From an uncultured Alphaproteobacteria bacterium (lineage in GTDB: Bacteria; Pseudomonadota; Alphaproteobacteria; HIMB59): a DNA stretch of 64,000 nucleotides. The translations under genes and the position numbers were made by a program. The DNA is taken from positions 62,001 to 126,000 of the forward strand of contig CABZCN010000003.1 of NCBI GenBank assembly GCA_902524245.1. Reading direction: 5' to 3'. The notes under the pieces were generated by a model. That model was not told where the DNA came from. It ran no database searches and worked only from the letters and a program-made list of their open reading frames with translations. Below are positions 45,098-62,063 of this stretch, piece after piece; position 1 is the stretch's first letter; the number at the start of each line of letters is the position of its first letter.

Positions 45098-46258
45098 ATG
45101 CCAGGTAAAATTTCACTTTTCGTACCAGGACCTACAAACATGCCAGATAGGGTAAGACAGGCGATGGATATTTCAAACGAGGACCATCGTGCACCCGGTA
45201 TGGATAAATTTTGGCACCCGCTAATAAACGATTTAAAAAAAGTTTTTGAGACGACATCTGCACAACCAATTATATTTCCTGGTACAGGCTCAAGTGGATG
45301 GGAAGCAGCACTTACAAATTTATTAAGTAAGGGAGATAAAGTTTTATCAGCTAGATTTGGACATTTTTCACACCTTTGGATAGAAATGTGTAAAAAACTA
45401 CACATTGAAGTTGAGGAAGTTGATCTAGAGTGGGGTTCTGGGACACCTCATGACGAATTTGAAAAAATATTATCAGAAGATAAGGATCATAAAATTAAAG
45501 CAGTTCTTGTAACTCACAATGAAACCTCCACTGGGGTTACAAACGATGTTAAAGCAACAAGAGACCTTTTAAATAATCTTAATCATCCTGCCTTACTATT
45601 TGTTGATGGTGTAAGTTCAATAGGCTCAATCAAATTTGAAATGGACACATGGGGGGTTGATGTTGCAGTTTCAGGCTCTCAAAAAGGATTTATGTTACCT
45701 GCTGGTTTGGCTATATCTTGTGTAAGCCAAAAGGCTTTAGAAATTGCAAAAACATCGAATTTACCCAGAGCTTACTATGATTATCATGATATGCTTAAAA
45801 TAAATGAAACAGGCTATTGGCCTTATACTAATCCAATGCCACTTCTAAGAGGACTTAGAGAGGCACTTAATATGATGATGGAGGAGGGAATTGATAATAT
45901 TTATGCACGTCATAAATTTTTAGCACAAGCTGTTCAAAAAGCATCTAGTGCATGGGGTCTTAAACTTTGTGCAAAGGATCCCTCACTTTATTCAAATACT
46001 GTTACTGCAATAATGGTACCAGAGGGAATTGACTCTACTGATGTAGTTAAAACAGCATACAACAAGTATAACACCTCATTTGGAGGAGGGCTTAATAAAG
46101 TAGCTGGAAAGTTGTTTAGAATTGGCCATCTTGGAGATTTAAATAGCACTATGATTTTAGGTGCAATTTCTACTGCAGAATTAGCCATGTACGATGTTGG
46201 AATAAAATTTGAACTTGGAAGTGGTGTTGCTGCTGCCATCAAACATTTAAAGGTTTAA
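45098..46258 (+). CDS. sgaA: Serine-glyoxylate aminotransferase
   Basis: PLP enzyme transferring the amino group of serine to glyoxylate, giving hydroxypyruvate and glycine. The protein aligns throughout with methylotroph SgaA: LFVPGPTNMPDRV at the start, ARFGHFSHLWIEM, VTHNETSTGVT, FVDGVSSIGS, the PLP Lys196 in SGSQKGFMLPAG and the C-terminal FRIGHLGDLN. Length 386 is typical. Alanine/phosphonopyruvate aminotransferase activity in the same family cannot be excluded. It has its own promoter region and is followed immediately by a PanE-like reductase. It ties glyoxylate to serine/glycine C1 flow. Confidence 0.9.
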   Translation: MPGKISLFVPGPTNMPDRVRQAMDISNEDHRAPGMDKFWHPLINDLKKVFETTSAQPIIFPGTGSSGWEAALTNLLSKGDKVLSARFGHFSHLWIEMCKKLHIEVEEVDLEWGSGTPHDEFEKILSEDKDHKIKAVLVTHNETSTGVTNDVKATRDLLNNLNHPALLFVDGVSSIGSIKFEMDTWGVDVAVSGSQKGFMLPAGLAISCVSQKALEIAKTSNLPRAYYDYHDMLKINETGYWPYTNPMPLLRGLREALNMMMEEGIDNIYARHKFLAQAVQKASSAWGLKLCAKDPSLYSNTVTAIMVPEGIDSTDVVKTAYNKYNTSFGGGLNKVAGKLFRIGHLGDLNSTMILGAISTAELAMYDVGIKFELGSGVAAAIKHLKV

Positions 46259-47236
46259 ATGAAAATTTGTATTTACGGTGCAGGAGCTATTGGTGGTTAT
46301 CTGGGAGCAAAACTTACTGAGATAGGTGCAGATGTAACTTTAATTGCTAGAGGGCCTCATTATCAAGCTATCAAGCAAGATGGTCTGAGATTAAGAAAAG
46401 ATGGCAAAGAACTAGTTGTATATCCAAAATGTGTAGACACAGCAGAAAAAGCTGGAAAGCAAGATTATATTTTTGTAACTCTAAAAGCTCATTCAGTTCC
46501 GGGTTGCCTTGATGCATTTGAAGTCCTTATGAAAGATGATACTTCATTTGTTTGGGGTGTGAATGGTATCCCATGGTGGTATTTCTACAATCACACTAAT
46601 CCTGATTTCAAAGATAAAAAAGTTACTTCAGTTGATCCTGATGGAAGTCAATGGGATCGTATTGGCCCTGAAAAAATAATTGGCTGTATAGTTAATCCCG
46701 CATCAGAAGTTATCAAACCAGGCGTTATTCAGCACTTAGAGGGAGATAAGTTTCAACTAGGAGAAATAAATGGAGAGGAAACAGATAGAATTAAAAATCT
46801 TTCTGAAACTTTAGAGAAAGCAGGCTTTCAAGCACCTGTTAGACCTAATATAAAAGGTGATATCTGGTTAAAACTTTTTGGTAATCTTTCTCTTAATCCT
46901 ATTAGTGCACTTACAACATCTACACTTGTCAAAATTTGCAGCAACGACGAAGTCAGAGCTGTGATAAAAAATATGATGAATGAGGCTCATGCAATTTCTC
47001 AAAATTTAGGAATAGACAAGCCTTTCGATGTTGAGAGAAGAATTGATGCAGCTAAAGCAGTTGGCGAACATAAAACATCTATGCTCCAAGATTTAGAACG
47101 CGATCGACCTATGGAGATTGATGCTTTAATCACTTCTGTTCAAGAGCTTGGAAAAATTACAAATGTTCCAACACCTACAATTGATACAGTTCTTGCTTTA
47201 ACCAAACTTAGAGCTAAAGAAGCTAAATTATATTAG
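46259..47236 (+). CDS. 2-dehydropantoate 2-reductase family protein
   Basis: NADPH-dependent 2-oxoacid reductase of the PanE (6PGDH-like) fold. [13 protein letters not shown] at residues 6-18 is the nucleotide loop. The catalytic Lys/Asn segment is [18 protein letters not shown] and the C-terminal [16 protein letters not shown] matches the SSMxQDxxxxRxTEID motif. Length 325 is normal. It begins immediately after sgaA, so a role with that enzyme is plausible, for example reducing hydroxypyruvate or another 2-oxoacid. Equally it may be the pantothenate enzyme. Ends overlapping convergent sucD by 4 bp. Confidence 0.8.
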
Positions 47237-48105
47237 TCTAAAGCTTCTTTGATTGTCTCACCTAGCTTTGCTGGTGATTTGGATATATGAACTCCTGCTT
47301 CTTCTAAAGCACTAAACTTTGACTCTGCGGTGCCTTTTCCACCAGAAATAATTGCACCTGCATGACCCATTCTTTTTCCAGCAGGAGCACTAGCACCGGC
47401 TATAAAAGAAGCAACTGGTTTTTTTATTTCAGATTTTTTAATAAATTCCGCAGCTTCCTCTTCAGCAGTTCCACCAATCTCTCCGATCATTATGATTCCT
47501 TCGGTTTCCGGATCTTTTAAAAAAAGATCAAGGCAATCTATAAAGTTTGTTCCGTTAATAGGATCTCCCCCAATACCAATACAAGTCGATTGACCTAGAC
47601 CTACAGCAGAAGTTTGTGCTACTGCTTCATATGTCAATGTGCCAGATCTGCTAACAACTCCTATTTTTCCTTTTTGGTGAATATGACCTGGCATAATGCC
47701 TATTTTGCATTCATCAGGAGTAATTATTCCAGGGCAGTTGGGTCCAATTAAACGCGATTTTGATTTTTCCAATTTTCTTTTTACTTGCATCATATCAAGA
47801 ACTGGAACTCCTTCAGTTATACAAACAATTATTTCCATGTCTGCATCAATCGCTTCAGTTATAGCACCTGCTGCAAAAGGAGGTGGAACGTATATTACAG
47901 TTGCATTTGCATCTGTGTTGTCTTTTGCCTCTTTAACACTATTAAACACAGGAAGTCCTAAATGCTCTTGACCACCTTTCTTTGGTGTCACACCACCAAC
48001 CATTTGAGTTCCATATTTTATAGCTTGTTCAGAGTGAAATGTACCTTGAGAACCAGTAAAACCCTGGCAAATAACTTTTGTGTTTTTATTAATTAATACT
48101 GACAT
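47233..48105 (-). CDS. sucD: Succinyl-CoA synthetase alpha subunit
   Basis: TCA-cycle ADP- or GDP-forming succinate-CoA ligase, CoA-binding and phosphohistidine subunit. [16 protein letters not shown] near the N-terminus binds CoA; GPNCPGII and the active His248 in [10 protein letters not shown] are present. Length 290 is standard. It lies 10 bp after sucC, with an AAAGGAG ribosome binding site. The malate-CoA ligase of the serine cycle is a homolog but fits less well. Confidence 0.94.
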
Positions 48106-48115
48106 AATTTCTCCT

Positions 48116-49303
48116 TTAGTTTAAAGCCCTAACTGCCTTTTGAGCTGCATCTTCTAAATTATCTGCCGAAATAATTGACAGCCCAGATTTATTTAAAATT
48201 TCTTTTCCTAGGTCAACATTGGTCCCTTCTAATCTTACTACCAATGGAACTTGAATAGATAGCTCTTTAGCTGCAGCTACCACACCCTCAGCGATAATGT
48301 CACATTTCATAATGCCACCAAAAATATTTACCAAAATAGCTTTTACATTTGGATCTTGCAAAATTATAGAAAAAGCTTTTGCAACTCTCTCTTTTGTAGC
48401 TCCTCCTCCTACATCTAGAAAATTTGCAGGACTTCCACCATGTAATTTAATTATATCCATTGTCCCCATTGCAAGACCAGCTCCATTTACCATGCATCCA
48501 ATTTGACCATCTAATTTGACGTAGTTAAGCTCATGTTTTGAAGCTTCAATCTCTGCAGGGTCCTCTTCAGTTTCGTCTCTCATTGAAGCTACATCTTTAT
48601 GTTTATAAAGCGCATTATCGTCTATCGATACCTTCGCATCTAAAGCCAAAAAATTACCCTCACCAGTCAATACAAAAGGATTAACCTCTACTAAAGAGGC
48701 ATCTGAAGACAAAAAGCTATTGTAAATTTTTTGAATTTGATCACAAAAATCGTTTGATAGGTTTTGATCTATATTAAGACCTTCAGTTAATTTATTTAAA
48801 CTTTTTTGGTCAATAATACTGTCCCCAGGGACATTGACAGTAATAATTTTTTCAGGTTGCTTTTCTGCTACCTCCTCAATTTCCATGCCACCCTCAGTAG
48901 AGGCTATAATTGAAATTGAAGATGAGGCTCTGTCCACGAGCATACTTAGATAGTACTCTTTTTTGATATCACACCCTTCCTCAATATAAAGTCTATTTAC
49001 CTGTTTTCCACTTGGACCAGTTTGTTTTGTAACTAAAGTTTTACCAAACATTTTTTTTGCATTGTCTTTGGCTTCATCTTTTGAGAAGCAAACTCTCACA
49101 CCGCCTTTGTCATCACCACTATCTGTAAATTTTCCCGCGCCTCTTCCACCTGCATGAATTTGAGACTTCACAACCATAACGGGTGTTTGGATAGAGTCTA
49201 CAGCAGTTTCTATATCGCTATCATCTAATACTGGGTAGCCATTTAAAACTCTAACGTTATTATTTTTTAATAATATTTTCGCTTGGTATTCGTGCAGATT
49301 CAT
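48116..49303 (-). CDS. sucC: Succinyl-CoA synthetase beta subunit
   Basis: ATP-grasp subunit of succinate-CoA ligase. [58 protein letters not shown] and [11 protein letters not shown] match SucC closely. The insertion after the AGGRGAGK loop is the alphaproteobacterial form. Length 395 is normal. It starts in TAATG overlap with qor but also has a strong AAAGGAG site inside qor. mdh and sucAB, the usual partners, are not adjacent. Confidence 0.95.
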
Positions 49304-50310
49304 TATTTTTCTCCTTTTATGCTTAAAACTATTTTTCCTGTATGGTCAGATTTTTCCATAACCTCATGTGCTTTATTTGCATCACTCATATTAAAAGTTT
49401 CAAAAATCGTTGGTTTATATTTATCATTCTCTATCAAAGGCCATATTTCTTCGACAACCTGATTAACAATATTTCCCTTTTCAGATGGAGATCTTGATCT
49501 TAATGTTGATCCAGATATTTTTAATTGTTTATTCATTATATGTAAAAGATTAGTTTCTGCTTTAATCCCACCGAGAGCAGCAATATAAGTAAGTCTTCCT
49601 TTAAAGTTTAATATTTTTAAATTTTTTTTTAAATAATCTCCTCCAACCATATCTAATATTACATCAACCTTTAATTTTTTCTCATTAAAATATTCTTCAA
49701 AATCTGTATCTTTGTAGTTAATAGCATCAGTGGCTCCTAATTCGATACAACTCTTACATTTCCCACTCGTACCAGCGGTTACAAAAATATTTTTTGTATA
49801 ATTTTTAAGAATTGAAATAGCAGTTGTGCCGATACCACTACTTCCACCATGTATCAAAATCGCCTCATCTCTTTGAAATTTAGATACATTGAAAATATTC
49901 TCAAAAACAGTGAGTGTTGTTTCTGGTAAGCAGCCAGCTTCATGTAAATTTAAATTTTTTGGTAATGGCATTACTTGTTTTTCATTGACATTTACGTACT
50001 CCGCATATCCACCACCTCCAAGAATTGCACAAACTTGTTCTCCTAAACTAAAGTTTTTTACTGACTTTCCTAATTTGGTAACTATTCCGGAACACTCTAA
50101 TCCAATAATTTCACTCTCACCTGAGGGTGGTGGATAATGTCCGTTTTTTTGGAGAATATCTGCTCTATTTATCCCAGCGAAATGAATTTCAATTTGGATT
50201 TGTTCATCAAGAGGGTCAGCGATCTCTTTTTCGTCTAGAAACAAACTTCCATCTTTATAATTTATAAACTTCAATTTAACTGCCTGTGGTATTTTGTATA
50301 CATTATACAA
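49303..50310 (-). CDS. Zinc-free quinone oxidoreductase (MDR family)
   Basis: NADPH:quinone oxidoreductase of the PIG3/QorA-like medium-chain reductases. [19 protein letters not shown] and GLECSGIV (N-terminal domain), [14 protein letters not shown] (NADPH loop, about 152-165) and DMVGGDYL are characteristic; the zinc ligands of alcohol dehydrogenases are absent. The frame opens with TTG at 50310, inside a 17-bp palindrome; a TTG 12 codons later is a possible alternative. It leads the qor-sucC-sucD operon. Substrate unknown. Confidence 0.85.
50294..50310. promoter_or_regulatory. Candidate GntR operator at the qor start
   Basis: Perfect palindrome TTGTATACATTATACAA with 7-bp arms and a CAT centre. 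It shares the 13-base core GTATACATTATAC with the site at 54226-54242. On the minus strand it contains TATAAT, so it may cover the -10 box of the qor-sucCD promoter. The likely binder is the GntR/FCD protein encoded at 53537. Confidence 0.65.
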
Positions 50311-50397
50311 TTAAATAACACAATCACTGTTGTAAAAGTTAGGAAAATCAATGCTAAAACAAGGTTTTTTTCTAATTTTAAACTAAATCCTAAATTA

Positions 50398-50418
50398 AGA
50401 ATATATTTTTAATATTCT
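50398..50418. repeat. Inverted repeat upstream of tctC
   Basis: Arms AGAATAT and ATATTCT (7 bp, perfect) separated by 7 bases, 45 bases before the tctC ATG. It is purely AT except for one pair, so not a terminator. It could be an operator or chance in AT-rich DNA. The rest of the 152-bp gap (50311-50462) shows no clear -35/-10 pair but ends in an excellent AGGAGG ribosome binding site at 50450-50455. Confidence 0.3.
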
Positions 50419-50462
50419 CTTAAATAGTTTATTGTACTGCTTAACCTATAGGAGGAAACAAT

Positions 50463-51440
50463 ATGTCAATAATCAAAAAATTAGCATTAGTTATTGTTTC
50501 ACTTTCACTTGTCGCTGTTAGCTCAGTGTCTTCTGCGAAGCCTTTTAGTCCAAAGAAGCCTATTGAGCTTATTATCCCAGCTGGTCAAGGTGGTGGAGCT
50601 GACGAAATTGCTAGATTAGTTCAAGGTGTTATCGAGAAAAACGACTACGCATCTAAGCCAGTGATTCCAATTAATAAAAAAGGTGGTTCTGGTGGTGAAG
50701 CTATGACTTATGTTAAGAAAAAAGCTGGTGATGAGCACACACTTATCATTACTCTTAACAACGTTCTAACTACACCTGTTAACCAGCCTGAGTTAGGAAT
50801 TGACTTCTTTAATGACTTCACACCATTAGCAAGACTTATTACCGATACATTCTTAGTATGGATTGCAACTGAAGGTAAAAATACTCAAGGTGTAGAAACA
50901 TTTGATGACTTCATCGCACTTGCTAAAGGCAATGGTCTAGTAATGGGTGGTACAGGAAGTATGTCTGAGGACGAATTACTTCTTGGTATGATGAGAGGTC
51001 AGTTTGGATTTGATGCAAAGTACGTACCATATGACGGTGGTGGTGCTGTTGCAAAAGGTCTAGTTGGCGGCGAGTCAGATTTTACATTAAACAACCCTTC
51101 TGAGCAGATGGGATTCTATCAATCAGGTGATTCAAAAGCATTAGTTATGATGACTCCTGAGAGAAATCCTGCATTCCCAGAAGTACCATCTTCATATGAA
51201 TTAGGTTATCCTGATCTTGAATACTATATGATGAGAGCATTCATGGCTCCAGCTGGTGTTGATGCAGAGGTAGAGAAGTACTACACAGGACTTCTTCACA
51301 CTGTTTATCATGATGACGAGTTCCAAACTTTCAACATCGACGATGGAAAGTTAATGAGCTGGTTAGAGGGTTTTGGTCTTAAAGATTTCTTAGCAATCGA
51401 ATATGCTAAGCACGGTGAGATCATTAAAAACTTTGACTAA
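50463..51440 (+). CDS. tctC: Tripartite tricarboxylate transporter substrate-binding protein
   Basis: Periplasmic Bug-family receptor that captures a carboxylate and delivers it to TctAB. A signal peptide (residues 1-25, ending SVSSA) is followed by FSPKKPIELIIPAGQGGGADEIAR, read in parts, and the GGSGGEAM and YVPYDGGGAVAKGLVGGESD segments typical of the family. Length 325 is standard. A perfect AGGAGG lies 7 bases before the ATG, and C-ending codons (ttc, gac, aac) are more frequent than in its neighbours, suggesting very high expression. The substrate cannot be read from sequence; oxalate or another small carboxylate is suggested by context. Confidence 0.93.
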   Translation: MSIIKKLALVIVSLSLVAVSSVSSAKPFSPKKPIELIIPAGQGGGADEIARLVQGVIEKNDYASKPVIPINKKGGSGGEAMTYVKKKAGDEHTLIITLNNVLTTPVNQPELGIDFFNDFTPLARLITDTFLVWIATEGKNTQGVETFDDFIALAKGNGLVMGGTGSMSEDELLLGMMRGQFGFDAKYVPYDGGGAVAKGLVGGESDFTLNNPSEQMGFYQSGDSKALVMMTPERNPAFPEVPSSYELGYPDLEYYMMRAFMAPAGVDAEVEKYYTGLLHTVYHDDEFQTFNIDDGKLMSWLEGFGLKDFLAIEYAKHGEIIKNFD

Positions 51441-51459
51441 TATTTAAATTAAGAGTGAT

Positions 51460-51984
51460 ATGAGCGTAACAAACAAAATAACTGTCAAAAGAGCAGAAAT
51501 TGTGGTGGCCGTTATTTTAGCGTTATGCTCAATCGCTCTGATGATTAAAAGTGCTGAGAATAGAATTACATGGAACGCAGAAGAAAACATGGGTGCGGGA
51601 TTTCTTCCTTTTTACCTTTCTCTTGGCATGCTTATTTGCACTGTCCTTACCATAATTAAATTCGTTCTAAAAAGGTCACCACAATCTAAAGATGACTCTC
51701 CTTTTATTGAGGCTGAAGCATTCAAATATATTGCAGTAACAATTATTTCATTAGTTATTTTAGTCTTAGCAATAGGCTATTTGGGAATTTACTTTTCACT
51801 TATCTTTTTTTTAGCTTTTTATCTTAGATATTTTAGTTCTAAAAGTGTCCTTTTTATATCTGTATTCTCTTTAATCACACCAGTTTTAACCTTTTTATTT
51901 TTTGAATGGCTTTTAAAAATACCTTTACCCCAAGGTATTTCAGAGCCCTTATTTTATCCAGTATACGATTTTATGTATTCTTAA
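51460..51984 (+). CDS. tctB: Tripartite tricarboxylate transporter small membrane subunit
   Basis: TctB-family protein of 174 residues with about four transmembrane helices. MGAGFLPFYLSLGMLI is the conserved first-loop motif (G.GffP). It pairs with the large permease TctA encoded 28 bp downstream. Membrane helices lie near 13-28, 46-64, 86-120 and 130-152. Confidence 0.88.
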   Translation: MSVTNKITVKRAEIVVAVILALCSIALMIKSAENRITWNAEENMGAGFLPFYLSLGMLICTVLTIIKFVLKRSPQSKDDSPFIEAEAFKYIAVTIISLVILVLAIGYLGIYFSLIFFLAFYLRYFSSKSVLFISVFSLITPVLTFLFFEWLLKIPLPQGISEPLFYPVYDFMYS

Positions 51985-52012
51985 TGAGATTGGTAAAGTA
52001 AAGACATAAAAG

Positions 52013-53536
52013 ATGGATGTATTTATACTTCTTCTAGAGGGAATTTTTGTATCCTTTGAACCCTTAAACCTTGGTCTTTTAGTATTTGGCTGTCTAATTG
52101 GTTTATTTGTGGGTGCAATGCCTGGTCTTGGTTCAGTTAATGGTGTTGCAATACTTATTCCAATTACATTTATTATACCACCCACTGCAGCAATAATATT
52201 TTTAGCAGCTGTCTATTACGGCGCTATGTATGGAGGTGCCATAAGTTCCGTTATGTTAGGTATACCTGGAGCTTCTACTGCAGTAGCTACAGTTTTTGAT
52301 GGAAGACCCTTAGCTGTTAAGGGAGAAGCTATGACAGCTTTAACTGCAGCAGCAGTAGGTTCCTTCGTTGGTGGAACTGTATCCGTTATTTTATTTACTT
52401 TATTTGCACCACCTCTGGCTGAGGTAGCACTAAGATTTAATGCGCCTGAAACCTTTGCATTAATGGTAATGGCCTTTGCAACATTTGTAGGCTTAGGTGG
52501 AGATGACGTTCCAAAAACTATTTTTTCTATATTAATTGGATTAGCTTTATCAACTATAGGCTTAGATCTAATTACAGGAAAGCCAAGATTAATTTTCTTT
52601 AATATCCCTGGATTTCTTCATGGAATTAATTTCCTTGTACTTGCTATCGGTATTTACGGAATTGGCGAGATGCTTTGGACCCTTGAAGAAACAAAAGGTA
52701 AAGTTCAAATGTCAAAATTATCAGTCAACATGAAGGAAGTTGGAAGAGCATTTGGTGCTCTTAAAAAAACTATAATGGCAATGAACATTGGTTCATTTCT
52801 AGGTTTCTTTGTGGGAATTCTCCCTGCGGCAGGTGCCACACCGGCATCACTTATGTCATATGGAATTACAAAACAATTATCAAAAAATTCAAAAGAATTT
52901 GGTTCAGGTGTTCCTGCTGGAGTTGTTGCTCCGGAATGTGCAAATAATTCTGCTAGTACTGGAAGTATGCTCCCTATGTTAACATTAGGTATTCCAGGAT
53001 CACCTACAACTGCTATTTTACTTGGTGGCATGATTTTATGGGGGCTTACACCAGGTCCTCTTTTATTTACTCAAGAACCCGAGTTTGTTTGGGGCTTAAT
53101 TGGTAGTCTTTACATCGCTAACTTCTTTACCCTGGTTTTAAATATTGCGTTAATTCCAGCTTTTTTAATGGTATTAAGGATACCATTTGCCATCTTGGCC
53201 CCGGTTATTTTTGTTCTTTGTGTAACAGGCGGTTATGCACCTACACAAAGTCTTCACGACGTATGGTTAATGTTGCTATTCGGTTTCGCTGGATATATTT
53301 TGAGAAAATTAGATTACCCTGTGGCACCAGCTGTTTTATCTATTGTTCTTGGTCCATTAGCTGAAAAAGCTTTAAGACAGTCTCTAATTTTATCTGATGG
53401 TAGTATGGGAATATTTTTTGATATGGCAGAAAAACCTATTGCTGCAATCATAATGTATATTGCAATTGTACTTTTAATTATGCCAGCATTTGGCCCTCTC
53501 TACAGAAAATTATTTAAAAAAGCACAGACTACATAA
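52013..53536 (+). CDS. tctA: Tripartite tricarboxylate transporter large permease
   Basis: TctA-family permease with about 11-12 membrane segments that takes up the TctC-bound solute by a cation gradient. GAMPGLGSVNGVAILIP and YYGAMYGGAISSVMLGIPG near the N-terminus, and the repeated counterpart GILPAAGATPASLMSYG with LTLGIPGSPTTAILLGG, are the family duplicated motifs. Length 507 is standard. The stop is directly followed by the ATG of gntR, with no spacer. Confidence 0.95.
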   Translation: MDVFILLLEGIFVSFEPLNLGLLVFGCLIGLFVGAMPGLGSVNGVAILIPITFIIPPTAAIIFLAAVYYGAMYGGAISSVMLGIPGASTAVATVFDGRPLAVKGEAMTALTAAAVGSFVGGTVSVILFTLFAPPLAEVALRFNAPETFALMVMAFATFVGLGGDDVPKTIFSILIGLALSTIGLDLITGKPRLIFFNIPGFLHGINFLVLAIGIYGIGEMLWTLEETKGKVQMSKLSVNMKEVGRAFGALKKTIMAMNIGSFLGFFVGILPAAGATPASLMSYGITKQLSKNSKEFGSGVPAGVVAPECANNSASTGSMLPMLTLGIPGSPTTAILLGGMILWGLTPGPLLFTQEPEFVWGLIGSLYIANFFTLVLNIALIPAFLMVLRIPFAILAPVIFVLCVTGGYAPTQSLHDVWLMLLFGFAGYILRKLDYPVAPAVLSIVLGPLAEKALRQSLILSDGSMGIFFDMAEKPIAAIIMYIAIVLLIMPAFGPLYRKLFKKAQTT

Positions 53537-54196
53537 ATGATCCAAAAAATAGGACCGGTAAACCTAAAAGGTAAGGTATACGATTCACTAAAAAAATATA
53601 TTTTGTCACTTAATATATATTTAAAACAAAGTGATTTTCATCTAGATGAGAGGCAATTATCTGAAAAGCTAGGAGTTAGTAGGACACCTATTCGAGAAGC
53701 TGTTGCTAAATTAGAGCAAGAGGGAATTGTTAAAACAGTTCCAAGAAGAGGCGTATTTGTGCACAGAAAATCAAAAAAAGAATTGATTGACATTGTAACT
53801 GTATGGGCAGGTCTAGAGGGTTATGCAGCTCATTTAATTATTGCTAATTCAACTAAAGATGAGATTGAAAGTTTAAATAAGTATTGTCATTACTCAAAAG
53901 AGAACGTTTTGTCTGAACTTGATAACTACTCAAATGATAATATTAAATTTCATAATCAAATTATGAAATTAACTAAAGTAAAATTAATGGGAGAAATTTT
54001 AGAGTCACAGTTAATTCATTTACAATACTTGAGGAAAAAATTTGTAATAGAGTCACATAGAGCTGTGAAATCAATTGATGAACACAATGACATTGTTAGA
54101 TCTCTTGTCGCAGGCCAGGGATCAAAAGCAGAAAAACTTCTTAAAAATCACGCACTTACTTTAGTTGATAAGATACAAGAAAGCATTAATTCATAA
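53537..54196 (+). CDS. GntR-family regulator with FCD domain
   Basis: 219 residues. The N-terminal winged helix shows LDERQLSEKLGVSRTPIREA (about 37-56) and LEQEGIVKTVPRRGVFV, followed by an all-helical FCD ligand domain (about 85-210). The metal-binding Asp/His pattern is partly visible (DNIKFHNQIM). It is encoded between the transporter and the CoA enzymes, so it very likely senses the imported acid or its product. The palindromes at 50294 and 54226 have the size and symmetry of FCD operators. Confidence 0.93.
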   Translation: MIQKIGPVNLKGKVYDSLKKYILSLNIYLKQSDFHLDERQLSEKLGVSRTPIREAVAKLEQEGIVKTVPRRGVFVHRKSKKELIDIVTVWAGLEGYAAHLIIANSTKDEIESLNKYCHYSKENVLSELDNYSNDNIKFHNQIMKLTKVKLMGEILESQLIHLQYLRKKFVIESHRAVKSIDEHNDIVRSLVAGQGSKAEKLLKNHALTLVDKIQESINS

Positions 54197-54207
54197 GGCA
54201 AAATTCT

Positions 54208-54242
54208 TTGCAAGACCTCTAAATCTGGTATACATTATACCA
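54208..54242 (+). promoter_or_regulatory. Promoter with candidate GntR operator before the ThDP-enzyme gene
   Basis: The palindrome TGGTATACATTATACCA (54226-54242, 7-bp arms, CAT centre) differs from the 50294 site by one base per arm. TTGCAA at 54208-54213 with a 17-base spacer to TACATT (54231-54236) is a possible promoter whose -10 lies inside the operator, so binding would repress. It gives the enzyme genes their own control, separate from the transporter. Confidence 0.6.
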
Positions 54243-54259: not shown

Positions 54260-55936
54260 ATGTCTACAGGATCTAACGAACAAATGATAACTGGCGGGGA
54301 GCTGGTTGCTAAAGCCCTTAAAGCAGAGGGAGTTGAGGTTATTTACACTTTATGTGGAGGACACATTATTGATATTTACAATGGATGTCTAAACGAAGGA
54401 ATTAAAATTATTGACGTACGTCATGAAGAAGTTGCCTCTCATGCAGCTGATGGTTATGCAAGAATGACAGGTAAACCTGGGTGTGCAGTTGTTACTGCTG
54501 GACCAGGCACGACACATGCATTAACAGGAGTAGCAAATGCTTTTAGAGCTGAAATCCCAATGCTTTTAATAGGAGGACAAAGTTCACTCACACAACATAA
54601 AATGGGATCTTTACAAGATTTACCTCACGTAGACATGATGCAACCAATTACAAAATTTGCAGCAACTGTAATGTCAACCGAGAGATGTGCAGACATGGTA
54701 TCAATGGCTTTTAGGGAAACTAGAAATGGATCTTTTGGTCCATCATTTTTAGAAATTCCAAGAGACATACTTGACTCTTCAATTCCAATGAGCAAAGCCG
54801 TCTTACCAGAAGCTGGAAAATATAGTGCTTCATCAAAAACATTAGCAGACCCAGTAGATGTACAAAAAGCTGCAGACATAATTTCAAATGCAGAGAGACC
54901 ATGCATACTTCTAGGTCAACAGGTTTGGACTTGCCAATCTACGAAAGATGCAATCGACTTTGTTAAAAATATGAATATCCCTGCTTATTTAAATGGTGCT
55001 GCAAGAGGTTCAATGCCTCCTGGAGACCCACATCACTTTCACAGAACAAGAAGAAATGCCTTTACCAAGTCAGATTGTATTATAATTGTTGGAACACCTT
55101 TTGATTTTAGAATGGGTTACGGTAAAAGATTAAATCCTAACGCAACTGTTATTCAAATTGATATGGACTATAGAACTGTTGGAAAAAATAGAGATATATC
55201 ACTTGGTTTAGTTGGACATATAGGAACAACTCTAAAGGCTATCTCTGAAGCAGGAACAAAAAAAGATCGATCAGATTGGTTTAATGAACTTCGATCTGGA
55301 GAAGAGGCAGCTTTAGAAAAATTGATGCCTACATTTACAACAGATAAATCTCCTATTAGTCCTTATAGAGTAGCTTGGGAACTCAACCAGTTTTTAAATG
55401 ATGATACTATATACATAGGTGATGGAGGAGACGTTGTAACCATAAGTGCTCAAGCAGTTCAACCTAGAATGCCTGGTGCATGGATGGACCCAGGGCCCCT
55501 TGGAACTTTAGGTGTCGGAGTACCATACGCGCTTGCAGCCAAATTAGCTGCACCTGAAAAAGAAATTCTTTTATATTGTGGTGATGGTGCTTTTTCGATG
55601 ACCGGAATGGACTTCGAGGCTTTTGTCAGACACAAAGCACCTGTTTTAACAGTTATTGGTAATAACTCTGCTCAAAACCAGATCAGATTTGGTCAAATTA
55701 TGAAGTATGGTGAAGATAAAGGAAATGTTGGAAACATCTTGGGTGATGTTAACTTTGATGAGTTTGCAAAAATCTTTGGTGGTCATGGCGAAGCTGTTAG
55801 AGAAGCAAAAGAAATCCAACCTGCCCTTCAAAGAGCTAGAGAAGCCGTAAAGTCAGGTATACCTGCAATCGTAAATATTTGGGTGGATAAAGAAGAATTT
55901 GCTCCTGGTACAAAAAACCAGACTATGTACAAATAA
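54260..55936 (+). CDS. ThDP-dependent enzyme, oxalyl-CoA decarboxylase/2-hydroxyacyl-CoA lyase-like
   Basis: Thiamine-diphosphate enzyme with the acetolactate-synthase architecture: PYR domain (about 10-175, activating Glu56 in RHEEVASHAADGYA), central domain (about 195-330) and PP domain (from about 365) with GDGAFSMTGMDFEA and NN as the ThDP/Mg motif. At 558 residues it is close to oxalyl-CoA decarboxylase (about 565). No regulatory subunit gene is adjacent, so acetolactate synthase is unlikely. The neighbour frc suggests oxalyl-CoA or 2-hydroxyacyl-CoA as substrate, releasing formyl-CoA. Glyoxylate carboligase or sulfoacetaldehyde acetyltransferase remain possible from sequence alone. Confidence 0.75.
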   Translation: MSTGSNEQMITGGELVAKALKAEGVEVIYTLCGGHIIDIYNGCLNEGIKIIDVRHEEVASHAADGYARMTGKPGCAVVTAGPGTTHALTGVANAFRAEIPMLLIGGQSSLTQHKMGSLQDLPHVDMMQPITKFAATVMSTERCADMVSMAFRETRNGSFGPSFLEIPRDILDSSIPMSKAVLPEAGKYSASSKTLADPVDVQKAADIISNAERPCILLGQQVWTCQSTKDAIDFVKNMNIPAYLNGAARGSMPPGDPHHFHRTRRNAFTKSDCIIIVGTPFDFRMGYGKRLNPNATVIQIDMDYRTVGKNRDISLGLVGHIGTTLKAISEAGTKKDRSDWFNELRSGEEAALEKLMPTFTTDKSPISPYRVAWELNQFLNDDTIYIGDGGDVVTISAQAVQPRMPGAWMDPGPLGTLGVGVPYALAAKLAAPEKEILLYCGDGAFSMTGMDFEAFVRHKAPVLTVIGNNSAQNQIRFGQIMKYGEDKGNVGNILGDVNFDEFAKIFGGHGEAVREAKEIQPALQRAREAVKSGIPAIVNIWVDKEEFAPGTKNQTMYK

Positions 55937-55952: not shown

Positions 55953-57200
55953 ATGGAAGCTTTAAAAGGTGTCAAAATATTAGACATGACACACGTCCAG
56001 TCCGGACCAACTTGCACGCAATTACTAGCTTGGTTTGGTGCAGATGTCGTAAAAGTTGAAAGACCAGGAGTGGGTGATGCTACAAGAGGTCAGCTAAGAG
56101 ACGTTCCTGATGCAGACAGTTTGTACTTTACAATGCTAAACTCAAATAAAAGAAGCATAACATTAAACCCAAAGAAACCAGAGGGTTCAAAAATATTTAC
56201 TAAGTTAATCCAAGAGTGTGATGTCATGGTAGAAAATTTTGCTCCTGGTGCTTTAGATAGAATGGGCTTTTCATGGGAAAAAATTCAAGAAATAAATCCA
56301 AGAATGATTTATGCGTCTGTTAAAGGTTTTGGTCCTGGCAAATATGAAGATTGTAAAGTTTATGAGAATGTTGCTCAGTGCGCAGGTGGATCTGCTTCAA
56401 CTACAGGTATGCTTGGAGAAGTTCCTTTAGTCACTGGTGCACAAATAGGAGATAGTGGAACAGGACTACACTTAGCATTGGGTATAGTTACTGCTTTATT
56501 CCATAGAGAAAAGTCAGGAAAGGGACAAAGAGTATCTGCCGCAATGCAAGATGGAGTTTTAAATCTTTGCAGAGTTAAACTTCGTGACCAACAGAGACTT
56601 TCAAGAGGGCCTTTAAAAGAATACTCTCAATTTGGAGAAGACATTCCTTTTGGTGACTCTACGCCTCGCGCAGGTAACGACTCAGGTGGTGGTCAGCCAG
56701 GGAGAATTCTAAAATGTAAAGGTTGGGAAAAGGATCCTAATGCATATACATATTTTATTACCCAGGCGGCTGTTTGGGAAAAAGTATGTGATGTTATTGG
56801 TAAACCCGAATGGAAAGAGGATGAAAATTACTCAACTCCTGCTAAAAGACTACCAAGATTAAACGAAATATTTGATACAATTGAGTCATGGACAATGACC
56901 AAGACTAAATTTGAGGTTATGGATATATGTAACCCTTTAGATATACCAGTTGGTCCAATATTATCTCTAAAAGAATTAGCTGAAGATCAAGGCCTGAGAG
57001 ACACTAATACTATAGTCGAAGTCGATCACCCTGAACGAGGGAAATATTTGACTGTTGGTAATCCAATTAAGTTATCTGACTCCCCAGCAAAAGTTGAAAG
57101 ATCTCCACTTCTCGGAGAGCATACTGATGAGATATTAAAAGAATTTTGTCAGATGAGTGACGATGAAATTAAAGCTGTAAGAGAGGCCGGAGCAGTATAA
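55953..57200 (+). CDS. frc: Formyl-CoA:oxalate CoA-transferase
   Basis: Class III CoA-transferase moving CoA from formyl-CoA to oxalate. The protein is strikingly similar to E. coli Frc throughout: [43 protein letters not shown], the catalytic Asp167 in AQIGDSGTG (Frc Asp169), [14 protein letters not shown], and the mobile glycine loop in [16 protein letters not shown]. Length 415 matches. A strong AGGAGG site precedes the ATG, 16 bp after the ThDP gene. The oxalate specificity is inferred from this close resemblance; other acyl acceptors are possible. Confidence 0.9.
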
Positions 57201-57226: not shown

Positions 57227-58144
57227 ATGAAAATAATTTTAATGGGGCAACAGGCATTTGGAAAAAGTGCTTTAGAAAAATTTCATACAGAAACAGATCA
57301 TGAAGTAGTAGCGGTATATTGTGCACCTGACAAAGAGGGTAAACCAGTCGATCCTGTTAAAGAATACGCTCAAAGTGTTAGTTTGCCTGTTTACCAACCC
57401 TCAAATTTTAAAGACCAAGAGGTACTAGACCAAATTAAGTCTCATGGTGCCGATTTATGTGTCATGGCTTATGTAATAATTTTTGTGCCTGAAGGAGCGA
57501 GAGATATTCCCACTCATGGATCTATTTGTTTTCACCCCTCACTACTTCCACTCCATAGAGGACCAAGTTCAATAAACTGGCCTATAATTGGTGGCTCCAC
57601 AAAAACAGGTCTTTCAATTTTTTATCCAAATGATGGGCTAGATGAGGGTGAAATATTACTTCAAAAAGAAGTTGATATTGGTCCTGATGATACTTTAGGA
57701 GATGTTTACTTTAAAAAGATATTTCCATTAGGTCTTGAAGCTTGTGTTGAAGCTGCAAATTTAATTGAGTCTGGTAATGCACCAAAGACACCTCAAGATG
57801 ACTCTAAAGCAACATATGAGTCTTGGTGTAAAAAAAGTGATGCAAGAATTGATTGGAAAAAACCCGGAAACGAAATTTATAATTTAATAAGGGGTTGCAA
57901 CCCTCAGCCTGGTGCATGGGCTGAATTCATGGGTGATGAGTACGTCTTTTATGACACTAAGTTTATTGACGAGCAAAGTGCTGAGCATTTTCCAGGTCAA
58001 ATCATATCAATTAATGCTGAAAACGTCAGAATCGCAGTTAAAGGTGGATTTATTGAGGTATCAAGATTTAAATCAGACCAAGGTAAATTATTTGTTAAAG
58101 ACATGAATACTGCAGTATTTACAGAGGGTGATTTATTCTCATAA
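57227..58144 (+). CDS. Stand-alone 10-formyl-THF hydrolase/formyltransferase-like protein
   Basis: 305 residues resembling the N-terminal domain of eukaryotic 10-formyltetrahydrofolate dehydrogenase more than methionyl-tRNA formyltransferase. MGQQAFGKSAL, VPEGARDIPTHGSI, HPSLLPLHRGPSSINW with His103, NDGLDEGEILLQKE with Asp139, and RGCNPQPGAWAE are shared. The Asn two residues before the His in true formyltransferases (INLHPS in PurN) is Cys101 here, as FDH has Ile, pointing to hydrolase-like chemistry. A C-terminal FMT-C-like barrel spans about 205-300. With frc upstream it may move or release the formyl group between formyl-CoA and folate. AAGGAG site present. Confidence 0.75.
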   Translation: MKIILMGQQAFGKSALEKFHTETDHEVVAVYCAPDKEGKPVDPVKEYAQSVSLPVYQPSNFKDQEVLDQIKSHGADLCVMAYVIIFVPEGARDIPTHGSICFHPSLLPLHRGPSSINWPIIGGSTKTGLSIFYPNDGLDEGEILLQKEVDIGPDDTLGDVYFKKIFPLGLEACVEAANLIESGNAPKTPQDDSKATYESWCKKSDARIDWKKPGNEIYNLIRGCNPQPGAWAEFMGDEYVFYDTKFIDEQSAEHFPGQIISINAENVRIAVKGGFIEVSRFKSDQGKLFVKDMNTAVFTEGDLFS

Positions 58145-60566: not shown

Positions 60567-62063
60567 ATGTTTGATATATTTTTAGACGATGCTCCTGCAT
60601 TGGTTGTAGTTTTACCTCTACTTATTTCTGCAATTATTGCATTTATGCCGTCAAAAATATGGCCTTGGATATTTTCAATCATCACTTTGTTGTTACATTT
60701 ATTTTTATCTTTGCATCTTCTTAAAGAAATTTCTGTTTCTGGTTTAATTATATATGAGTTTGGAAATTGGGAACCACCATGGGGTATTTCTTTTAAAATA
60801 GATGGGGTGAATATTGGACTTCAATTGTTATTTTCAATTTTTGTTTTGGTATCAACATTTTACTCAAGAAAAATCTTCTTGAATGAAATTGACTATAGGG
60901 ACTCTGGAAAGGCCTATTCTTTGTGGTTATTGGCAGTTGGAAGCCTGAACGGGATTATTTTAACTAATGATATTTTCAATTTATTTGTCTTTTTAGAAAT
61001 ATCTGCATTAGCTTCTATTTCTTTAATTGCCTTAGGTGCAGGACAAAATAGAAAAGCATTACTCGCAGCTTTTAATTATCTAATTATCGGGGCGATCGGG
61101 GCTACATTTTATGTAATTGGGGTTGGCTTTGCCTACGCTATGACAGGTACGTTGAACATGAATGATCTTGTAATTCAACTGGCCCAATATTCCGATGGTC
61201 AGTTAGCTATCTTCGCAGGTATGTCATTCATGCTTATAGGTCTTATGGTAAAGGCTGCGATTTTTCCTGTACATATTTGGTTACCACCTGCATATAGTTA
61301 TGCTCCATCAGCTGTCTCAACACTTTTGGCTGCTTTAGCAACAAAAACAATTCTTTATTTTTTTGTGAGACTTTTGTACGAAGTATTCATAATTTATCCG
61401 AGCTATTTAAGTTTGTTTTTAGATTTTGTTTTATATCCTCTATCTTTACTGGCTATATTCATTGGGACTGTAATAGCCATCTATCAAGATGATATCAAAA
61501 AACTTTTGGCATTTTCCTCAATTGCGCAAATTGGTTACATCACACTGGCTTTTAGCCTTAAAGACCACAGTGGAGTAGCTTCGGGCTTTGTGCATATATT
61601 TAATCATGCTTTGATCAAAGGAGGATTATTTATGGCTGTTGGTTACTTCGCTATTCTTTATAAGGATCGAGTAACCCTAAACAGTTTAAAAGGTTTTGGC
61701 TATAAATACCCCATAACTTCATTTGCTTTATTAATTTGTGGATTATCTTTAATTGGATTACCTCTAACAAATGGCTTCATTTCAAAATTATATTTATTTC
61801 AAGCTCTTTATACAAACCAGATGTATTTTTCAATCGCTTTAGTTGCGGTAAGCTCCGCATTAGCTGTTGTATATTTCTGGAAAATAGTGGAACAGATGTG
61901 GTTTTCAGAAATTAAATTTAAATCTGAAAAAGAAGATGCTTATATTTATTTACCAATATGGATAGTTACAATTTCAATCATTGTTTTTGGGATATATTCA
62001 ACACCAATAATTGAATTTTCTAACTTGTCCGCAGACTATTTAATATCAGGTTATCAAAATTGA
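60567..62063 (+). CDS. mnhD: Cation/proton antiporter subunit D (first copy)
   Basis: NuoN/NuoM-like large subunit, 498 residues, about 14 helices. The proton-path residues include the Glu in FVFLEISALASISLIALG, the Lys in MVKAAIFPVHIWLPPAY, SAVSTLLAALATK and the Lys in YQDDIKKLLAFSSIAQIGY. Starts directly after mnhC. It matches MrpD in position and motifs. Confidence 0.92.
   Translation: MFDIFLDDAPALVVVLPLLISAIIAFMPSKIWPWIFSIITLLLHLFLSLHLLKEISVSGLIIYEFGNWEPPWGISFKIDGVNIGLQLLFSIFVLVSTFYSRKIFLNEIDYRDSGKAYSLWLLAVGSLNGIILTNDIFNLFVFLEISALASISLIALGAGQNRKALLAAFNYLIIGAIGATFYVIGVGFAYAMTGTLNMNDLVIQLAQYSDGQLAIFAGMSFMLIGLMVKAAIFPVHIWLPPAYSYAPSAVSTLLAALATKTILYFFVRLLYEVFIIYPSYLSLFLDFVLYPLSLLAIFIGTVIAIYQDDIKKLLAFSSIAQIGYITLAFSLKDHSGVASGFVHIFNHALIKGGLFMAVGYFAILYKDRVTLNSLKGFGYKYPITSFALLICGLSLIGLPLTNGFISKLYLFQALYTNQMYFSIALVAVSSALAVVYFWKIVEQMWFSEIKFKSEKEDAYIYLPIWIVTISIIVFGIYSTPIIEFSNLSADYLISGYQN

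Follow-up and report, generated by a model that had tools for sequence, protein, structure and literature searches.

The locus and its palindromes

The DNA analysed here, called the window, is the whole 64,000-nucleotide stretch from positions 62,001 to 126,000 of contig CABZCN010000003.1 (assembly GCA_902524245.1), from an uncultured alphaproteobacterium of the HIMB59 lineage, and the elements in question are two 17-base-pair (bp) palindromes that stand on either side of a block of transporter and regulator genes. The minus strand carries sucD, sucC and qor, and divergent from these run tctC, a tctB-like gene, a tctA-like gene, gntR, the gene of a thiamine diphosphate (ThDP)-dependent enzyme, frc and fmtL (Table 1). 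Judged from sequence, the palindromes are very probably operators of the adjacent FCD/GntR protein, which scores 49.1 bits against PF00392 (cut-off 27) and 50.8 bits against PF07729 (cut-off 24.3). Metal-type FCD domains carry a metal-binding Asp-His-His-His set; in this FCD domain the three His residues are kept in 12 of 12 aligned sequences, and the Asp position is Asn in all 12.

The earlier note on this DNA had singled out two 17-bp perfect palindromes that share a 13-base core, and both lie exactly where it placed them: operators 1 and 2 each have a perfect 7-3-7 palindromic form, and their 13-base cores are identical. The gap from operator 2 to the ATG of the ThDP enzyme, given there as 18 bases, measures 17. 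Within the window by itself, such a pair is only moderately unexpected. Perfect 7-3-7 palindromes number 23, against a mean of 11.8 (standard deviation 3.7) in shuffled sequence, and a pair sharing a 13-bp core is present in 7 of 200 dinucleotide shuffles of the window; these figures are the ones that would suit an origin of the palindromes as chance AT-rich sequence. The 17-bp pattern at up to three mismatches occurs 8 times in the window, where 2.0 matches are expected and 8 were reached in one of 100 shuffles.

The own genome (G000, 1.37 Mb, 94.6% complete) matches the pattern with 0-1 mismatch in three places, operator 1, operator 2 and G000:C7:7002 (TGGTATACAATATACCA), so that the motif is rare and not frequent at random genomic positions, as the earlier note had allowed it might be. 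At 3 mismatches on both strands the genome holds 28 matches, no excess over the reversed-pattern control (35), and weaker matches are therefore uninformative. The site-like sequence at 53169-53185 within tctA was rejected as a conserved site: it has 0 mismatches in one relative (L050) and 3-6 in seven other loci, and is not kept beyond close kin. Upstream of tctC, at about 50372-50390, the window has a degraded form of another block that resembles a palindrome (GTTTCATATTATGAAAC in L079), which is kept in many aligned relatives, L079, L085 and L087 among them, and which we take to resemble an IclR-type operator. Elsewhere in the window, positions 45098-47236 hold an aminotransferase gene of BhcA-like type, at 573 bits against a cut-off of 650, and then that of a panE-type reductase (46259-47236).

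Table 1. Positions in the window of the palindromes and of the genes around them
Feature	Position	Strand	Basis and remarks
sucD, succinate-CoA ligase alpha	47233..48105	-	family match; possible operator 1 target via qor
sucC, succinate-CoA ligase beta	48116..49303	-	family match; possible operator 1 target via qor
qor, PIG3-type quinone oxidoreductase	49303..50274 (start moved from 50310 to near 50274)	-	TIGR02824; possible operator 1 target
operator 1 (putative), TTGTATACATTATACAA	50294..50310	.	divergent qor/tctC intergenic region; 152 bp 5' of tctC ATG, 19 bp 5' of corrected qor start
tctC, solute-binding protein of tripartite tricarboxylate-type transporter	50463..51440	+	PF03401
tctB-like small membrane subunit	51460..51984	+	named from position and conservation; without NCBIfam match
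tctA-like large membrane subunit	52013..53536	+	named from position and conservation; without NCBIfam match
gntR, FCD-type (FadR subfamily) GntR regulator, 219 aa	53537..54196	+	Pfam GntR and FCD above cut-off; cassette conservation; proposed binder
operator 2 (putative), TGGTATACATTATACCA	54226..54242	.	gntR/ThDP-enzyme gap; 17 bases to ThDP-enzyme ATG
ThDP-dependent enzyme	54260..55936	+	closest solved relative 2-hydroxyacyl-CoA lyase; not canonical oxalyl-CoA decarboxylase
frc, formyl-CoA (oxalate) CoA-transferase	55953..57200	+	TIGR03253; alignment to E. coli Frc
fmtL (label coined in this analysis), formyltransferase nearest the N-terminal domain of 10-formyl-tetrahydrofolate dehydrogenase	57227..58144	+	family search

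Conservation of the sites

In 40 loci of the genus (L050-L089) the gntR/ThDP gap carries the motif core in 39, the remaining locus (L086) ending inside gntR, and the qor/tctC side carries it in 38, the other two (L061, L070) not reaching the region. The motif is present also beside GntR proteins at 73-75% identity (L084, L085, L087); on the qor/tctC side L083 has two copies and L084 two overlapping copies. Alignments of 15 and 14 sequences present the sites as invariant blocks amid divergent DNA, and across 52 genus genomes, at up to one mismatch, the pattern gives a summed 171 matches in 51 genomes and its reversed control 10.

A search of 386 genomes of the class found the ThDP enzyme at E ≤1e-100 in 23, of which 4 belong to the same genus, 12 match at 62-71% identity and 7 at 35-42%; all of the 12 and three of the 7 were examined. 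Among the 12 distant loci, frc is close by in every one, gntR (38-46% identity) is present in 8, tct in 7 and fmtL in 4, some contigs ending early, and in three (L266, L267, L269) fhs, the gene of formate-tetrahydrofolate (THF) ligase, lies within the cassette. Every one of the 8 distant cassettes with gntR has a site with 0-4 mismatches no more than 300 bp upstream of that gene. Of 18 matches at 0-4 mismatches, 16 fall into the upstream DNA of targets (6.9 kb) and two into the other 122 kb; this count includes the antiporter gene of L268, which was made a target only once its site was known, and takes overlapping matches separately. Palindromes with shuffled arms, 55 in number, gave a mean of 0.13 target matches and a maximum of 1, and since the distant loci have 62-66% G+C, the A+T-rich site is conspicuous there.

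The motif is thus kept beside gntR in relatives, the cassettes of distant families included, a point on which the earlier note had seen its proposal as vulnerable. It is this conservation, and not the statistics of the window, that decides for operators. Chance AT-rich palindromes are contradicted by the conservation in the genus and in the distant cassettes and are ruled out by the shuffled-arm controls in the latter, and the probability that we leave to chance is negligible.

In a 2-mismatch scan of one strand, the 8 distant genomes with gntR beside the cassette have 22 sites, against 7 for the control pattern; the 4 without gntR beside the cassette, in which gntR was not sought elsewhere, have 7, against 17 for the control. 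Given these control counts, lone 2-mismatch sites, such as those at TRAP-type transporter genes, at panE of G221 (859 bp), at the L268 antiporter gene and at an unlinked tctC of G261, are perhaps due to chance. G221 also has a 1-mismatch site about 145 bp upstream of succinate dehydrogenase genes.

Further occurrences were seen in the genus. A site lies 16-17 bp before a transhydrogenase-alpha gene in G029, G025, G037 and G009, and likewise, with 1 mismatch, in G038 (the family was checked in G029 only). Five genus genomes possess a gene resembling CitE/malyl-CoA lyase; four of them have upstream of it a site that departs from the TGG consensus at 2-4 positions, the fifth (L210) being unreadable, and in G003 the gene that follows scores above the cut-off as malate-CoA ligase. 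In four genus genomes (L124, L126, L127, L130) ATGTATACAATATACCA stands at or near the start of a gene for a small membrane protein, whose neighbour in L124 scores as an MltB-type transglycosylase. A 0-mismatch site in L122 (G029:C1:646065) immediately precedes what by eye seems to be the beginning of an ABC sugar-transporter operon, the first gene of which is without NCBIfam match.

A site upstream of fhs

The third site of the own genome, G000:C7:7002, is 28 bp upstream of fhs, which lies outside the window and matches NF010030 at 911 bits (cut-off 652). This gene, absent from the earlier note, is the strongest additional target. It was detected in 42 of the 52 genus genomes, with upstream DNA readable in 39, the matches in G010, G034 and G038 being without N-terminus, and all 39 readable regions have the site at 0-1 mismatch: at 27-30 bp from fhs in 30 genomes, at 29-49 bp from the start of the match in 6, and 3 more carry it. 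In the 69%-complete genome G038 (C3 and C4), the gntR and fhs matches are interrupted by stops and the sites are still present.

The searches of the sister family f2 covered 48 genomes for gntR, 31 for fhs and 110 for the motif. All 31 have an fhs match, and each of the 28 readable upstream regions has its best match at 5-7 mismatches, that is, no site; no close gntR was found in the 48 genomes (best E about 1e-9). The 110 genomes hold no exact match to the motif and a summed 128 matches, every one at 1 mismatch. Ten of the loci were inspected. Two sequences dominate, TTGTATACCATATACAA and ATGTATACATTGTACAA, the latter falling inside a coding gene that is nuoG-like by eye.

Form of the putative operator and comparison with known regulators

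Operators of the FadR subfamily bear a TKGT and an ACMA box, in which 2-3 nucleotides (nt) as a rule separate GT from AC, and further, weaker half-sites are described at a distance of 7-12 nt (PMC4494728). Those of DgoR, ExuR, GlcC, LldR, PdhR and others, regulators of carboxylate metabolism, are likewise AT-rich palindromes with such boxes (PMC4494728). The GntR protein of the window has, in silico, a palindromic operator with TKGT/ACMA-like boxes adjoining its own gene, and the spacing is unusual: 9 nt separate the outer boxes, whereas 2-3 nt is the usual distance in this subfamily (PMC4494728). The 17-mer can be read as a TKGT-AT-ACAW unit that a further box, 7 bp on, overlaps, and some distant sites show TGGTATACCA and a third box.

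Two characterized repressors invite comparison. NanR of E. coli is, as is proposed here for the window protein, a GntR-type repressor that recognizes GGTATA boxes and is weakened in its binding by an effector, but its (GGTATA)3 operator is made of direct repeats and belongs to the sialic acid regulon, whereas the boxes at the window site are inverted (on NanR, PMC8012715); the GntR protein scores 58 bits against the NCBIfam NanR model, whose cut-off is 260. GlcR of Paracoccus is likewise an alphaproteobacterial member of the FadR subfamily, represses a pathway for a small hydroxyacid and is released by its substrate glycolate; it differs in controlling glycolate oxidase, and the likeness is one of description (PMC11323563).

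The proposed regulon

Building on the computed sites and their conservation, on the gene families and on the site before fhs, we infer that the GntR protein binds these palindromes, most likely as a repressor rather than an activator, and that it would leave the DNA when an inducer, a small carboxylate or a CoA thioester, is present. The core regulon, on the best reading of the sequences, would comprise tctCBA-gntR, the genes of the ThDP enzyme, Frc and the formyltransferase, and fhs: operator 1 would control the transporter-regulator operon, operator 2 the operon of the ThDP enzyme, frc and formyltransferase gene, and the site at G000:C7:7002 the unlinked fhs. Together these genes would import a small acid, convert it to formyl-CoA and formate, and pass the one-carbon unit to THF. 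We consider it highly probable that GntR-operated palindromes control these three units for such small-acid-to-one-carbon chemistry. The GntR regulon that the earlier note had proposed, with the palindromes as its operators, thus gains support from the rarity and the conservation of the motif; the membership of sucCD and the quinone reductase, which it had also suggested, stays conjectural and is taken up below.

Several observations weigh against this interpretation. No close gntR was found in 10 of the 52 genus genomes, all of them at most 79% complete, and at least 7 of these keep the fhs site; missing contigs or another binder could be the explanation. At two spirochaete loci with GntR proteins 30-33% identical the motif was not found. 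The count of 39 in 39 fhs regions does not represent 39 independent events, because the genus loci are closely related, and the contrast in fhs between the genus and f2 is a single evolutionary split, not 28. In the window, the neighbouring aminotransferase-panE genes have no upstream site at up to three mismatches, and a scan of 50200-50500 for sigma-70-like promoters reported none, against 2.0 expected by chance, although by eye the minus strand of operator 1 holds a TATAAT oriented to qor. In f2, TTGTATACCATATACAA, with 1 mismatch, recurs between genes that are transaldolase-like and priA-like by eye (L157, L159, L160, L161 and others), and because the 48 f2 genomes searched have no close gntR, similar sites are possible without this regulator. 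The last points concern the ThDP enzyme, which scores 247 bits against the oxalyl-CoA decarboxylase equivalog TIGR03254, below the cut-off of 739, and has Leu-Gln where oxalyl-CoA decarboxylase has Tyr-Glu (Y134-E135 in MeOXC; E121 in OXC P40149); score and residues together rule out a canonical oxalyl-CoA decarboxylase.

The f2 palindrome, conserved without a close gntR, also bears on whether the sites belong to a different FCD/GntR regulator of similar specificity, for which paralogs at about 30% identity are at hand in G029, G038 and G009 and which would be expected to read similar DNA, TKGT/ACMA boxes being common to FCD regulators in the account of PMC4494728. The motif is, however, co-conserved with this particular gntR across distant families, and none of the 110 f2 genomes has an exact match to it, and we regard a different regulator as improbable.

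Enzymes and probable substrate

The Frc protein scores 694 bits against the equivalog model TIGR03253 (cut-off 504). If oxalate is the imported acid, Frc would form its CoA ester, the ThDP enzyme would free formyl-CoA, and the formyltransferase and Fhs would load THF. Oxalate is favoured because of this equivalog match, because in L268 an oxalate/formate antiporter (TIGR04259, 611 bits, cut-off 335; closest solved chain OxlT, 221 bits) takes the place of Tct, and because panE-type genes occur within the cassette region of L268 and L272 and, in L307, behind the sucC-type pair. The PanE of Methylobacterium is described as an oxalyl-CoA reductase (PMC9485241). The antiporter gene of L268 has a 2-mismatch site 161 bp upstream, and L271 has a homolog of this antiporter. 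Oxalate is in our view the likeliest substrate, a 2-hydroxyacid the second.

An oxalyl-CoA decarboxylase above the family cut-off was found in none of 19 genus genomes, none of 14 genomes with the ThDP-frc pair and one of 14 control genomes; G335 has another match to the model, at 534 bits and thus also below 739. The closest solved relatives of the ThDP enzyme are 2-hydroxyacyl-CoA lyases, and it keeps the equivalents of the Gly-Gly-His, Thr and Gln of AcHACL (G43, H44, T88, Q128). Gln at the Q128 position is also listed for AHAS and POX, OXC having Glu there (PMC13327070), and is therefore not lyase-specific. At the position of the catalytic E493 of AcHACL the enzyme has Ile, as does human HACL2, so that E493 is not universal among these lyases (Table 1 of PMC13327070); the active-site comparisons drew on PMC13327070 and PMC8411744. 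The best NCBIfam score of the ThDP enzyme, 487 bits, is to an acetolactate synthase model and under its cut-off of 587, so that automatic naming may mislead. The enzyme looks lyase-like, and 2-hydroxyacyl-CoA lyase activity is a prediction only.

These similarities, with AcHACL Q128 retained where OXC has Glu, suggest an alternative in which the operators and the regulator are as proposed and the pathway cleaves a 2-hydroxyacid instead of oxalate. Frc would then form a 2-hydroxyacyl-CoA from formyl-CoA, the ThDP lyase would yield formyl-CoA and an aldehyde or ketone, and formate or formyl-CoA would supply THF. In G221 and G202 (L310 and L311), 2-mismatch sites precede TRAP-type transporter genes that are related to each other (dctP 64% identical); these sites would accord with such a substrate, the one in G221 adjoining what appears by eye to be a 2-hydroxyacid dehydrogenase gene. 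Set against it are the score of Frc as an oxalate enzyme, the oxalate/formate antiporter substituting for Tct in L268, and the Ile in place of the catalytic Glu493, though human HACL2 tempers the last point. The 2-hydroxyacid route is possible, and we hold it well short of an even prospect.

The formyltransferase encoded by fmtL would, by analogy with HypX/HoxX, swap a formyl group between formyl-CoA and THF. One may go further and picture a natural, undescribed formyl-CoA cycle in marine bacteria. In it an acid taken up by the cell, either oxalate or a 2-hydroxyacid, would give formyl-CoA through the CoA-transferase and the lyase-like ThDP enzyme, the stand-alone formyltransferase would pass the formyl group straight from one carrier to the other, formyl-CoA and THF, without free formate as an intermediate, and one FCD regulator would coordinate uptake, cleavage and the loading of one-carbon units; we put this forward as a speculation that is rather unlikely to hold in full.

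Known clusters resemble parts of this set. In frc-oxc of E. coli (L279) an Frc CoA-transferase also stands beside a ThDP enzyme, but Oxc has the Tyr-Glu pair, in contrast to the Leu-Gln and the AcHACL-like loop of the window enzyme, and the 8-kb E. coli stretch contains no formyltransferase gene, fhs or gntR. An actinobacterial 2-hydroxyacyl-CoA lyase cluster also lists a GntR-family gene with a formyl-CoA-releasing ThDP enzyme, and activation there is by a CoA ligase (PMC7176365), in contrast to the CoA-transferase of the window, whose ThDP enzyme has Ile for E493. A survey, by titles and the beginnings of abstracts, of the literature on oxalate, SAR11 and formyl-CoA and on FCD/GntR/oxalate regulons found no such regulon among the papers listed, nor was a paper found in the library searched that joins HIMB59 with the serine cycle or a tripartite tricarboxylate transporter with a formyl-CoA transferase.

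The place of qor and sucCD

The earlier note put operator 1 at the start of qor-sucCD. The TTG at 50310 is probably not the qor start and was rejected as such: the homology of divergent relatives begins at about codon 13, the TTG at 50274. A start near 50274, 19 bp from the palindrome, is indicated by that homology and by an ATG at this position in L078, L084, L085 and L087.

Control of qor-sucCD by operator 1 is plausible, and these genes are the least certain members of the regulon. In 13 loci the site is 6-38 bp from the qor start (the 38 of L076 probably reflecting a misassigned start), a tighter spacing than the 107-181 bp to tctC. Sites also precede sucC-type genes elsewhere: in G261 a perfect-arm site stands 151 bp upstream of a sucC that is 61% identical to that of the window; in G233 a site with 1 mismatch lies 48 bp upstream of a sucC-type gene, behind which come sucD and a panE homolog; and in G221 a sucC-type gene has a perfect-arm site 102 bp upstream. 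Because CoA-ligase genes recur in this way as neighbours of the site, the link to sucCD gains indirect support. The same operator, lying in a divergent region, could serve tctC alone, leaving qor-sucCD as a neighbour of tctCBA-gntR outside this regulation and the sites still those of this regulator. In L266, L267 and L269 the site is upstream of tctC too and qor-sucCD was not found alongside; G261 has a 2-mismatch site 271 bp upstream of an unlinked tctCBA set; and the sucC of the window, to which the genome yielded no second copy, presumably serves a housekeeping role. Against the tight qor spacing and the sites at other sucC-type genes, we give this narrower role of operator 1 a chance that comes close to even.

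Meaning for HIMB59-type bacteria

With the core regulon proposed here, a pathway from small acids to one-carbon units, in ocean bacteria of the HIMB59 type as well as in distant alphaproteobacteria, would have a specific operator, a regulator and a list of genes. Within it, the ThDP enzyme may substitute for oxalyl-CoA decarboxylase or be a further formyl-CoA-releasing lyase, and a formyl-CoA:THF transferase is suggested. The sites would mark a small control circuit for one-carbon chemistry that is open to bench testing with purified proteins.

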